Shown: positions 25,565 to 40,658 of the stretch, piece after piece
Position numbering within the stretch: position 1 is the first letter of the stretch
Layout: every line of letters begins with the position of its first letter
Notes under the pieces: model-generated
Database searches by the model: none
What the model saw: the letters and a program-made list of their open reading frames with translations, nothing else
What the model was told of the DNA's origin: nothing
Made by a program: the position numbers and the translations under genes
IMG/VR virus record: IMGVR_UViG_3300037010_001573
Coordinates: 97,677-161,676 of that record
DNA: 64,000 bases
Reading direction: 5' to 3' (one strand)
Origin: a virus

Positions 25565-26008
25565 TTATTTTTTATCTTCTAATTGTTTTTGAAAATATTC
25601 ATAAATATCAGCATAATCAGTAAAATCATCTTGAATAGAACTCACATCATCATCATCTATGTAATCTTCTTCATTTATTTCATGTTCATTTGAATCATCT
25701 GCTAATTGACGAGCAGCTCCTTGTAATTGAGTATCGGACCATTTCGCTGCTTCCTCTCGAGTTAATCCTAAAAAACTAATTAATTCAGATCTACCCATTT
25801 TTTTAATTTTATCAACAGAATATTCATTTTCTTTAACAAAATTAACAGGATTAGATAATGAACCTGCTGTTTGATCACCTGTTGTTCTTTTTATTTGATC
25901 TATTTGTTGACTTTGCTGTTGTGGAGTAAGAGTTCTACCTCCGGTTTTAACAGTCAATGATTCACGTACTTTAGTTCTAATAGTTTCTTTTAATTGAGAT
26001 ACTTTCAT
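25565..26008 (-). CDS. Acidic protein with basic N-terminal helix motif
   Basis: The N-terminus of this 147-residue protein, MKVSQLKETIRTKVRESL, is a basic amphipathic helix of the kind that recurs at the ends of other proteins in this window. The middle (MGRSELISFLGLTREEAAKW) is a helical domain and the C-terminus is acidic. It lies upstream of terminase. The function is unknown; a role in the prohead core is one possibility. Confidence 0.6.
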   Translation of the reverse strand: MKVSQLKETIRTKVRESLTVKTGGRTLTPQQQSQQIDQIKRTTGDQTAGSLSNPVNFVKENEYSVDKIKKMGRSELISFLGLTREEAAKWSDTQLQGAARQLADDSNEHEINEEDYIDDDDVSSIQDDFTDYADIYEYFQKQLEDKK

Positions 26009-26027: not shown

Positions 26028-26558
26028 CTATAAATATTCAGAAATTGCATTTAACACAATTTTAATTCTATCTTCTGTTGTACCTGATATTTCAACTAAA
26101 CGTTTAGGTGGGTATGTTTTTAACAAATCAACAATTGTTCGATCAATCAGTAATCTATAATCTGGATCTATTGTACGAACTCCATTATCTTCTATCTCTA
26201 CACCTATTGGTGATATGTAAAATATGATATCATATTGATCAGATAAACAAGAAGCCAATTCTATATATCGTTTTTTCGCATTTTCATCAATGGATTTTGC
26301 ATTATCTGTAAATGAGCATACATCCCATATGGTTCTATCAGTCAATACGTTATCTCGCAAAATTTCACTAGATCTTTCAGCTAAAAATATAATCTGTCCT
26401 GGTAAAGTAGAATCTGTATTTAGAGGGATACCTAAATCTCTTAAATATTTACTACGTTCAGTTGCTATAAAATAGTCTTTAAATTCTGGTAATTCAGATA
26501 ATGCTTTGACTAATGTTGTTTTTCCACATGACATTGTGCCCGTAAATCCTATTTTCAT
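26028..26558 (-). CDS. P-loop kinase / NadR-type ATPase
   Basis: The 176-residue product begins MKIGFTGTMSCGKTTLVKAL, with Walker A GTMSCGKTT at 7-15. The pattern TERSKYLRDLGIPLN and then LTDRTIWDVCSFTDNA resembles the AAA_28 / NadR-like kinase family, which phosphorylates nucleosides such as nicotinamide riboside. The substrate here cannot be read from sequence. It sits 19 nt before the 147-aa gene and just after two small overlapping genes. Involvement in cofactor or nucleotide metabolism near an FAD enzyme is suggestive only. Confidence 0.75.
   Translation of the reverse strand: MKIGFTGTMSCGKTTLVKALSELPEFKDYFIATERSKYLRDLGIPLNTDSTLPGQIIFLAERSSEILRDNVLTDRTIWDVCSFTDNAKSIDENAKKRYIELASCLSDQYDIIFYISPIGVEIEDNGVRTIDPDYRLLIDRTIVDLLKTYPPKRLVEISGTTEDRIKIVLNAISEYL
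26029..26036 (-). promoter_or_regulatory. Late-type TATTTATA box
   Basis: Exact box overlapping the kinase stop codon, 20 nt before the ATG of the 147-aa gene. Confidence 0.35.
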
Positions 26559-27008: not shown

Positions 27009-27809
27009 TTATTGGTTTTTCAAAATATATTCGGATACATAAACCCCATGTGCACCACTTACAGTAATACCACGTGCTGATAAAGCATCACCCACAAAAT
27101 GAACATTTGGGTATGTGTTAAGAGATAAATTATCGTAATTAACTAAAGGTTCTGGTGATAAATATTTTACTTCTGGTATATACATTCCCCAATCGTCTCC
27201 GAATTTAAATACTTTATTCATTTGTTCGATAAAGTTAAGAATATATTCTGCATATTCACCAAATGCTTCTTTGAAGGGTTGTAAGTCTTTTACGCGAATG
27301 GTTTTAATCAATTCATTTTCAGATGTTTTGGAAGGTTCTCTTGAAGGTGAATAATAAATTCCTCTTAAAGATTTCATCCCTACTAAGTATTTAAATTGAC
27401 ATTTTCTTACTACCTCTCGACTCCACTCAAATGGATTTTCAATGCCTTTGATTTCCATTAATATACCAAAGTTGGTCATATCATTTCTAAATTCTTCTCC
27501 TTTTTTAGCATGACCATTATAACTAATATCACCATATGTTTCTTCTACAGCAACATAAGCAGCATTGTTATTAGTGCAAAATGATCTTAAAGATACTTGT
27601 TCGTTTGGTTTTTGATATAATTTGAAATCATAAGATACATCAATCAATTTTTGGAAATATTTTTGTGGGCTTTCAAATCTACAGCCTATTTGAACTGATT
27701 TAGGTTCAGTTGATAAGTCATATTCTTCAGCTAAAGATTTACCAAAATCAATACCTGATTTACCTACTGCGAATATTAATGAGTCGTATTTAATTTTATT
27801 TGTTTCCAT
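27009..27809 (-). CDS. FAD-dependent oxidoreductase, C-terminal half (split gene)
   Basis: These 266 residues form the C-terminal part of an FAD-dependent oxidoreductase. The start METNKIKYDSLIFAVGKSG is a mid-protein segment, where the substrate domain of such enzymes returns to the nucleotide-binding fold. The end carries the second FAD signature: VHFVGDALSARGITVSGAHG. The N-terminal half is encoded at 28665-29207, and about 0.86 kb with a homing endonuclease lies between. It has its own ATG, which overlaps the stop of the preceding 87-codon frame by 14 nt, so separate translation is likely. Substrate unknown. Confidence 0.8.
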   Translation of the reverse strand: METNKIKYDSLIFAVGKSGIDFGKSLAEEYDLSTEPKSVQIGCRFESPQKYFQKLIDVSYDFKLYQKPNEQVSLRSFCTNNNAAYVAVEETYGDISYNGHAKKGEEFRNDMTNFGILMEIKGIENPFEWSREVVRKCQFKYLVGMKSLRGIYYSPSREPSKTSENELIKTIRVKDLQPFKEAFGEYAEYILNFIEQMNKVFKFGDDWGMYIPEVKYLSPEPLVNYDNLSLNTYPNVHFVGDALSARGITVSGAHGVYVSEYILKNQ

Positions 27810-28059
27810 CTGTTATTTTAATTGTACTGTAAAAATTTGGGTAATAGTTTTTTTGAGAATATTTAGAAATAAATTTGCTTTTTAAATATTTTGGTTTGAT
27901 AAAGAAATGCTTAATTTTTAATAAGAAATTCTTAAATTTATTTTTATACCAAACTGTTTCTCCATTTATTTGAGTAGCAACAGTAACACAAATATATGGA
28001 GCCCAAACATATCCTTTTTCTAAACTTCCTTTATCTATTTTTATATCTTTATTTTCCAT
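27796..28059 (-). CDS. Hypothetical protein inside homing cassette
   Basis: This 87-residue protein lies between the endonuclease remnant and the C-terminal FAD half. Residues 15-45 (KGYVWAPYICVTVATQINGE) look like a folded core, followed by Lys/Phe-rich helices and a terminal PNFYSTIKI strand. It overlaps both neighbours (19 and 14 nt). It is not part of an endonuclease domain that I recognise. It may be cargo of the inserted segment or a native gene beside it. Confidence 0.6.
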   Translation of the reverse strand: MENKDIKIDKGSLEKGYVWAPYICVTVATQINGETVWYKNKFKNFLLKIKHFFIKPKYLKSKFISKYSQKNYYPNFYSTIKITDGNK

Positions 28060-28664
28060 CCTTTATATGTTTTTGCTTTGTTTGTGACTAAATTATATAT
28101 TCCTTTATAAGTTAAATTATATTGATTTTGAAAATCATATCTAATACCTTCAAATTCTTCATTAGTATTTATATTAATAAAAATATATATTTGATTATTT
28201 ACAAATTTATATTTTCCTTCTTCAGTATGTTTAGGTTTACCTTTTTGTTTTAAATTTTTAGATAATTTAGCTTCTTCATTCATTTTAAAACCTTTAGGTG
28301 CTCCTATCTTTATACCAGGAGTTTTAATATGATTTAAACCTTTATCTTTTCTAATTTTTATTCTATTTTGTTTTACTCCTATTTTTTAGATCTAATTTTT
28401 TCAATAGTTTCATCAGAGTGTTTATTCAATCCTCCTCCACCTTCATTTTGATTGATTAATTGGAATCCCCATTGTTTAAATTGTTGAATCCAATGGTTTT
28501 CCCAAAATTTCCAAATTTCTTTTATATTATCACATTCATCGATTAAATTAAAAATAATATCTTCTCCAAATTCTCTCTTCCAATCCGCTTCTCTAGATTT
28601 AGGATTTTTTGTTTTTCCTATATAAAATGGAATATTGTTTTTTTCTAAATAATATATAAAAGCT
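27810..28664 (-). mobile_element. Homing-endonuclease cassette splitting an FAD oxidoreductase gene
   Basis: The two FAD enzyme halves end and begin without missing sequence (…YKPIEDKK and METNKIKYDS…). The DNA between holds a GIY-YIG endonuclease with NUMOD-type modules, plus an 87-codon frame. No intein domain is visible, since neither half carries extra foreign residues. A group I intron cannot be excluded by eye, but the second half has its own start codon. The layout parallels the split nrdA of phage Aeh1, which was interrupted by a homing gene. Confidence 0.55.
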
Positions 28665-28711
28665 TTATTTTTTATCTTCAATTGGTTTGTATTCGACTTC
28701 ATTAGTTTCAA
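28041..28711 (-). pseudogene. GIY-YIG homing endonuclease, frameshifted
   Basis: The first part (28711-28379, 110 codons) is the nuclease domain: FIYYLEKNNIPFYIGKTKNP, E-N-H in the helix (FWENHWIQQF), then a NUMOD3-like HSDETIEKIRSKK before a stop. In another frame the protein continues KIGVKQNRIKIRKDKGLNH through TPGIKIGAPKG and a C-terminal DNA-binding module (TYKGIYNLVTNKAKTYKGWK, NUMOD1-like) to 28041. The break is at an A6 tract (28387-28382); one more A restores about 224 codons. It is either a dead gene or one using slippage. Its start lies 47 nt inside the N-terminal FAD half. Confidence 0.75.
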
Positions 28712-29207
28712 AATTTATATTGGTGACCTCATGCTGCCATAAGAAATTAATACCCTTATCAACTAAATATTGATACCAAGCAACTGCTATAAGAGAAAGA
28801 TAATTACTTCCTATATGCCATACAGGAAATAAACGTAATCCAAAGTATGGTTTAATAAATTCAGGTTCTTCAACAGGATCAGAACAAAATATTTCTTCTG
28901 GTTTAGGGTGAAAGCGTCTAAAGTTACTAATAACTTGATCCATCAGTTGCATTGCTTTGTCTTCACCACAATACTTGGATAATTGACCCCCAATGGCTGT
29001 ATGGTATGTGAGTTTACCATCAGAGTATCCTCCAGCTCCTGCAAACCCACACATAACCTCTTCTGGTTTTCTTTCATAAGGGTCCTTGCCTTTATCTATA
29101 ATTGTTATAAGTTCACCGGGATAACCCCCATCTACTAATTTTAATGCTGCGTTAATCCCAGCTACTCCACTTCCTACAATTACAATTTTCTTTTCGTATT
29201 TACTCAT
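28665..29207 (-). CDS. FAD-dependent oxidoreductase, N-terminal half (split gene)
   Basis: The 180-residue product has an N-terminal Rossmann FAD site KIVIVGSGVAGINAALKL (GxGxxG at 12-17), followed by IIDKGKDPYERKPEEVMCGF and GGYSDGKLTYHTAIGGQLSK, as in FAD-dependent dehydrogenases of the COG2509 type. It ends at EVEYKPIEDKK, where an intact homologue should continue into the protein encoded at 27009-27809. Together the halves give about 446 residues, close to a full enzyme. It overlaps the small NUMOD1-like gene by 8 nt. Confidence 0.8.
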   Translation of the reverse strand: MSKYEKKIVIVGSGVAGINAALKLVDGGYPGELITIIDKGKDPYERKPEEVMCGFAGAGGYSDGKLTYHTAIGGQLSKYCGEDKAMQLMDQVISNFRRFHPKPEEIFCSDPVEEPEFIKPYFGLRLFPVWHIGSNYLSLIAVAWYQYLVDKGINFLWQHEVTNINFETNEVEYKPIEDKK

Positions 29208-29406
29208 TTTTACATTTCCATTTATAATTTAATGCTGTTTTTTGTCTTCCTAATATACAATCTTTAATTTGTGAAGTTAAATTACTATTTTTGCCTGTTA
29301 ATTCTTTAAAATATTTAGCAGCTAATCCTTTACTCTCCCATTCTTTAATAAAATTACCTTCTAAATCTAACTGTAATACAGGTTTAGCACACTTTAATTT
29401 AGCCAA
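29200..29406 (-). CDS. Orphan NUMOD1-like DNA-binding protein
   Basis: These 68 residues (KPVLQLDLEGNFIKEWESKG, then LAAKYFKELTGKNSNLTSQI and ALNYKWK) match the helix-turn-helix module that normally forms the C-terminus of HNH or GIY-YIG homing endonucleases. No nuclease domain precedes it. It is either a remnant or a free-standing DNA-binding protein. It lies immediately before the split FAD gene, adding to the homing-gene traffic at this locus. Confidence 0.6.
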   Translation of the reverse strand: MAKLKCAKPVLQLDLEGNFIKEWESKGLAAKYFKELTGKNSNLTSQIKDCILGRQKTALNYKWKCKNE

Positions 29407-40226: not shown

Positions 40227-40658
40227 TTAATAAAAATCCATACGATGGAATTTTCCAAGGATATTATCATTATATGAATTTGATGTTAATAAACACCCCG
40301 TAGTGCATTGGTAATGCATTTCAAAATAAGTTAATTGTTTTTTATTAGGACATAATTTTAAAATTAAACATTCAAAATAGTCAGGTCCTAATTCTTTAAC
40401 ATCGTTTTGAAGTTCTTTTGAAGATCCCCAATATGTTTTCCAATCACTCTCTTTAGTTACTAATTTAGTAGTTACTTTTCTACCTCGGCTAACAGGTAAA
40501 GATGCTAATTCTTTTTTACCTAATTTAACATTAGTATTATGGACAAAATATTTTTTACCTATGTAAAATTTTCCATTTTTTAAATTTGTTATTTGGTATA
40601 TAAAACCAAAATAATCTTGAGGATTAAAATCCTCAGAATATAACCATTTACTTTCCAT
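40227..40658 (-). CDS. SegE-like GIY-YIG endonuclease
   Basis: The 143-residue product contains a GIY-YIG core with F in place of G (FGFIYQITNLKNGKFYIGKK), then KTYWGSSKELQNDVKELGPD and FECLILKLCPNKKQLTYFEM. This matches the SegE-type putative endonucleases of T4 phages. It appears intact and stands free between a tail gene and the primase. Unlike the cassette in the FAD gene, it carries no NUMOD modules. It may act as a homing gene. Confidence 0.75.
   Translation of the reverse strand: MESKWLYSEDFNPQDYFGFIYQITNLKNGKFYIGKKYFVHNTNVKLGKKELASLPVSRGRKVTTKLVTKESDWKTYWGSSKELQNDVKELGPDYFECLILKLCPNKKQLTYFEMHYQCTTGCLLTSNSYNDNILGKFHRMDFY

Follow-up and report, generated by a model that had tools for sequence, protein, structure and literature searches.

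A FAD oxidoreductase gene of a T4-like flavophage divided at a site shared by homing endonucleases and exchangeable cargo genes

How does a virus come to carry one FAD oxidoreductase as two separate genes, and could the two products still make an enzyme? The question is raised by a 64,000-nt window (the whole stretch of DNA analysed here), which is part of a virus record of 161,676 bases. The window virus has a T4-like gene set, the closest counterparts of its terminase and neighbouring genes are found in Flavobacterium phages of the immuto group, and its hosts are Flavobacterium-like bacteria. A search of the whole record found each half of the oxidoreductase as a single copy. The features of the locus are as follows.

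29200..29406, minus strand: ORF with a NUMOD1 domain, homing-endonuclease-related (Pfam NUMOD1 0.0014, below the family cut-off)
28665..29207, minus strand: N-half of the FAD oxidoreductase, an ORF of 180 aa (Pfam Pyr_redox_2 5.4e-6)
27810..28664, minus strand: 855-nt insert separating the halves, located at the variable hairpin that joins strands 167-170 and 176-178 of the uninterrupted homologue
28379..28702, minus strand: 5′ part of the endonuclease gene HE-A, GIY-YIG catalytic domain, 107 codons, broken frame (Pfam GIY-YIG 2.7e-4)
28041..28378, minus strand: 3′ part of HE-A, C-terminal and presumed DNA-binding, in a shifted frame (from an alignment of eight HE-A genes)
27796..28059, minus strand: variable cargo gene, 87 codons (a 94% identical cargo is present in locus L027)
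27009..27809, minus strand: C-half of the FAD oxidoreductase, an ORF of 266 aa (PHROG dehydrogenase 5.9e-12)

The ORF coordinates bear out the initial annotation in that the N-half stops cleanly at PIEDKK (its C-terminus is ...EYKPIEDKK-stop) and the C-half restarts at its own ATG at 27809, beginning METNKIKYD. The N-half contains the FAD-binding GxGxxG Rossmann motif VGSGVAG, and the C-half has a GDALSARGITVSGAHG motif close to its end. The intervening gap had been described as about 0.86 kb with a GIY-YIG gene and an 87-codon frame; both are present in the 855 nt that separate the N-half stop from the C-half ATG, but the GIY-YIG frame is broken. This break had been overlooked, as had the variable nature of the cargo and the occurrence of another endonuclease type in the same gap.

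Relatives were collected by scanning viral contigs with each half separately, which gave 154 loci with both halves. The oxidoreductase is a single ORF in 120 of the 140 near-complete loci and in 89 of 104 after duplicate removal, while 15 of the 104 distinct loci are split, with more when partial loci are included. Both the junction-spanning single-gene homologues and the cassette-free relatives that had been proposed as a check are thus plentiful, down to a distant solved single chain, 3nlc. Since so many single-gene homologues span the junction, the possibility that the halves are always separate genes falls away. The N-half of the window is at most 85% identical to viral homologues, unsplit and split, and the C-half shares up to 79% identity with the corresponding part of homologues encoded by a single ORF. 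Together the window halves agree with 224 of 233 near-invariant columns (conserved at ≥95% in 64 unsplit proteins). A scan of bacterial genomes returned four relatives only, all on MAG contigs and possibly phage DNA, of which two are labelled Flavobacteriaceae/Flavobacteriales.

The predicted fold of an uninterrupted homologue (L002; mean pLDDT 82) places the break in the turn linking strand 167-170 to strand 176-178. This beta-hairpin varies freely in length and sequence among unsplit relatives and directly precedes a conserved Y-D-x-L-I-F-A-V-G-K-S-G stretch, and every split falls at this one hairpin. The closest solved relative is the flavoprotein VP0956 (PDB 3nlc; profile E 4.6e-4), which is also the top Foldseek match (2.5e-18) to the predicted fold of the uninterrupted homologue. 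It spans the junction as a single chain, and differs from the phage protein in being bacterial, longer and only about 18% identical. A PDB search with the C-half alone gave no match. We take VP0956 and the phage enzyme to be flavoproteins of the COG2509 type.

An insert of 0.38-1.5 kb lies at this same point in 22 of the 154 loci carrying both halves, so the insert in the window is not a chance event; with later additions, about 17 distinct phages have the split. Two arrangements were observed. In type A (the window, L001, L026, L027, L075, L081, L082, L084 and L123) the order is N-half, GIY-YIG endonuclease HE-A, variable cargo, C-half. In type B (L039, L043, L057, L076, L103, L106, L107, L142 and, from its hits, L191) the order is N-half, variable cargo, a different endonuclease (HE-B) in some loci, C-half; here the N-half ends ILKD or ILED and the C-half starts MRKIKFD. 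HE-A thus adjoins the N-half and HE-B the C-half, and the two endonucleases share weak similarity only, chiefly near their C-terminal ends. Locus L081 is a mosaic, type A on the left and type B on the right, which indicates that the two types have been joined by recombination.

The locus probably encodes a natural two-chain COG2509-like flavoenzyme, made by homing-endonuclease insertion at a site that doubles as a cargo slot. In T4-like flavophages, a free-standing GIY-YIG homing endonuclease gene would have entered the gene for a COG2509-like FAD oxidoreductase where it encodes the beta-hairpin of variable length, and left two genes behind: an N-half that stops a few codons beyond the insertion and a C-half that acquired a start codon (ATG), in most cases 5-7 codons ahead of the Y-D-x-L-I-F core. 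Each chain would be translated on its own from the series of overlapping ORFs that runs from N-half through endonuclease and cargo to C-half. Since the presumed FAD site is shared between the chains, they most likely come together non-covalently as a single flavoenzyme, presumably active. The endonuclease would spread the split allele by cutting insert-free alleles, and the stretch between endonuclease and C-half would serve as a slot for exchanging accessory cargo genes, which usually would start from an ATG in the endonuclease tail. The earlier proposal that a homing-endonuclease cassette split the gene is supported by the unsplit homologues and, as set out below, by purifying selection on both halves and the lack of an intron or intein.

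The order of events could also be the reverse, with the gene already split by another event or insertion, endonucleases and cargo invading the gap later, and the enzyme still made as two chains. HE-A, HE-B and cargo-only inserts do all occupy the same gap, and for phage 25 gene 43 the order is left open in the literature (PMC2988022). We consider a prior split unlikely here: the type A N-halves, those next to HE-A, form one supported clade (SH-aLRT 96), remnants of HE-B are found in some cargo-only inserts, and no insert-free split locus was seen among the loci examined. Trees of the two halves conflict, with six changes needed on the N-half tree and nine on the C-half tree, and a single origin of the split, sought in both trees, was not established. 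The disagreement between the trees and the many changes that they need point to recombination in the history of the locus. A co-conversion gradient beside the insert was sought in synonymous divergence and is weak only, with 0.43 among A types versus 0.66 between A and unsplit genes in the last N-half window, and 0.50 among B types versus 0.66 between B and unsplit genes in the first C-half window.

Insertion by a homing endonuclease, the reading that we prefer, is consistent with where close homologues of the two endonucleases are found. All eight loci with HE-A at ≥71% identity (counting L161, which is the query's own record) have it within this split, and all four loci with full-length HE-B at ≥67% identity likewise have it there. 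Because all close homologues sit in this split, we infer that HE-A cuts insert-free alleles and drives homing. Intact HE-A homologues are 216-224 aa long (217 aa in L027). In the window, HE-A reads TCT-AAAAAA-TAG at about 28380, with six A versus seven; the relatives are all one base longer. The one-base shortfall ends the frame after 107 codons and leaves the remainder in another frame. The GIY-YIG domain of the window copy scores 21.6 bits, just under the cut-off of 22.6, versus 23.3 bits for HE-A of L027. The missing A may be genuine or a one-base assembly error, and one could speculate that a minus-one ribosome slip at the A run restores the frame. With its frame broken, or mis-assembled by one A, the HE-A of the window may not home now. 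Loss or breakage of the endonuclease, seen in L043, L103, L107 and the window, has not cost these phages either half.

Might the split gene be a decaying pseudogene, with one or both halves non-working? The broken endonuclease frame of the window would fit such decay, as would the outcome of a search of the nearest isolated phages, in which the oxidoreductase gene was not found. Substitutions in the halves argue otherwise. For the N-half, pN/pS is 0.216 (type A) and 0.208 (type B) versus 0.188 in unsplit genes; for the C-half, it is 0.318 (A) and 0.259 (B) versus 0.276. Such ratios indicate that purifying selection acts on both halves as it does on the unsplit gene, and since they are low while synonymous differences in the halves are near saturation, the splits are not recent losses of function. 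In addition, conserved residues are kept in both halves, every split C-half has an in-frame ATG before the conserved core, and the split recurs in many phages. Decay is therefore rejected as the main reading on the grounds of selection and residue conservation, and we regard it as quite improbable.

The organization of the insert bears on how two chains could be made. The ATG of HE-A (28702) falls within the N-half, with which the gene overlaps by 38 nt in the +1 frame. The 87-codon ORF overlaps both the HE-A frame (28041-28059) and the C-half (27796-27809), so that the ATGGAAAATAAA of the window cargo is within the HE-A tail and the cargo stop overlaps the C-half start. The cargo start is the ATGGAAAAT in the HE-A tail in seven of eight aligned loci, and these cargos consequently begin Met-Glu-Asn; L084 uses another overlapping ATG. 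Of 15 loci, 14 have the C-half ATG 5-7 codons ahead of the conserved Y-D; in L123 the distance is 18 codons. Translation by re-initiation along this chain of overlapping ORFs is a plausible mechanism, by analogy with overlapping T4 endonuclease genes, for which it has been described (PMC2988022).

The same organization speaks against splicing. GIY-YIG endonucleases are frequently intron-encoded and the insert is located in a conserved enzyme gene, as would be expected of a self-splicing group I or group II intron that carries its endonuclease and joins the exons in the mRNA. Nevertheless, no intron family matched the insert, even at E up to 5, and none was detected in the whole window or in ten relatives; a group I catalytic RNA core was likewise not found. 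Intact type A inserts are nearly all coding: 0-11 nt fall outside ORFs, or 28 nt in the mosaic L081, which leaves no place for an intron core. The 3′ part of the insert also differs completely between phages, and the C-half always has its own ATG. On this sequence evidence we rejected group I and II introns and split inteins alike for want of a family match and of space; the chance that the exons are spliced is very small. Although phages are known to have fractured genes in which an endonuclease separates the halves (work cited in PMC10448857), chains joined post-translationally by split-intein fragments are wholly improbable at a junction that leaves no room (about ten N-half residues and seven C-half residues), matches no Pfam intein family and in unsplit relatives occupies the same space with a short hairpin.

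What fills the slot between endonuclease and C-half changes from phage to phage. The type A cargo is a GNAT acetyltransferase in L075 and L082, an ADP-ribosyltransferase-like protein in L001, L026 and L081 (a label given by a Pfam 2CompART match with the L001 protein, below the cut-off), and a protein without an assigned family in L084 and L123. Homologues of the window cargo, at 60-64%, are free-standing ordinary genes in unrelated phage contigs (L197-L199). In a comparison of the window with L027, dS exceeds 1 in both halves, pS in the endonuclease is 0.40 and then 0.23, and pS in the cargo is 0.04; a stretch at about 27830-28130 is 94-99% identical. Cargo that is nearly identical between phages whose halves are synonymously saturated shows that the cargo moves as a module. 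More tentatively, the split may be a dedicated gene-capture slot. A single tolerated break in the flavoenzyme would then serve two different homing endonucleases, one of which supplies an overlapping start codon to any accessory gene that arrives downstream of it, and the two-chain enzyme would have turned into a lasting place of exchange for small genes of the phages (acetyltransferase, ADP-ribosyltransferase-like and unknown); we regard this as possible rather than probable.

The nearest precedent is nrdA-a/nrdA-b with mobE of Aeromonas phage Aeh1, where a free-standing homing endonuclease has likewise interrupted a conserved enzyme gene in a T4-like phage and two polypeptides are made without an intron. 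Aeh1 differs in having an HNH endonuclease, a ribonucleotide reductase and proven activity; the window has a GIY-YIG endonuclease, a COG2509-like flavoenzyme whose chain assembly is predicted, a second endonuclease type in the gap and variable cargo. Long-lived enzyme splits are also known from gene 43 of Aeromonas phages 25 and 44RR, and from T4 topoisomerase gene 60/39 with mobA. Experiments have shown that Aeh1 nrdA and phage 25 gene 43 (gp43) are split yet active, and the gene 43 gap holds a seg-type endonuclease in phage 25 and a different sequence in 44RR. The gene 43 and gene 60/39 splits concern other enzymes, and cargo exchange is not described for them in the sections of PMC2988022 that deal with these examples, from which the comparisons with Aeh1, gene 43 and gene 60/39 are drawn. 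HEG-islands of ICP1-like phages offer a further likeness, as endonuclease genes bracket conserved genes and are proposed movers of neighbouring cargo; there the cargo consists of core phage genes between endonucleases, whereas here small accessory genes lie inside a split gene (PMC10448857).

Few natural two-chain enzymes from homing-endonuclease insertion are documented. Here some 17 naturally split forms are available, their inserts differing and several of them lacking an intact endonuclease, together with scores of relatives that keep the gene whole. They amount to a natural experiment from which one could learn how a flavoenzyme copes with a broken chain, whether a split gene can outlast the element responsible for it, and whether accessory genes come to be exchanged at breaks of this kind.

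The surroundings of the gene are conserved. Among the 104 loci, which were taken with limited flanks, the ATPase gene (at 26028 in the window) is downstream of the oxidoreductase in 74 and the terminase in 51. Directly upstream of the N-half, the NUMOD1-only ORF overlaps the N-half ATG by 8 nt and occupies the equivalent position in at least 10 unsplit relatives (62-76% conserved), so that the oxidoreductase gene appears bracketed by endonuclease-related sequence. NUMOD1-like sequence was also seen about 0.5 kb downstream of unsplit oxidoreductase genes in L095, L028, L112, L108 and L036. In further loci (L165, L166, L169, L173, L180 and L194), GIY-YIG sequences like HE-A or HE-B are found just upstream or downstream of the oxidoreductase, which marks the locus as an endonuclease hotspot. 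Elsewhere in the virus record there are three more GIY-YIG matches (G000:C1:67600-67779, G000:C1:18630-18818 and window 40227-40658), one of them with an internal stop and the match at window 40227-40658 weak. A leader of the form MKxSxLKxxIKEE is common to several genes, with window starts at 26008, 33148 and 52679 (minus strand), and to B-type cargos; we take it to resemble the capsid-targeting leaders of T4 internal proteins.
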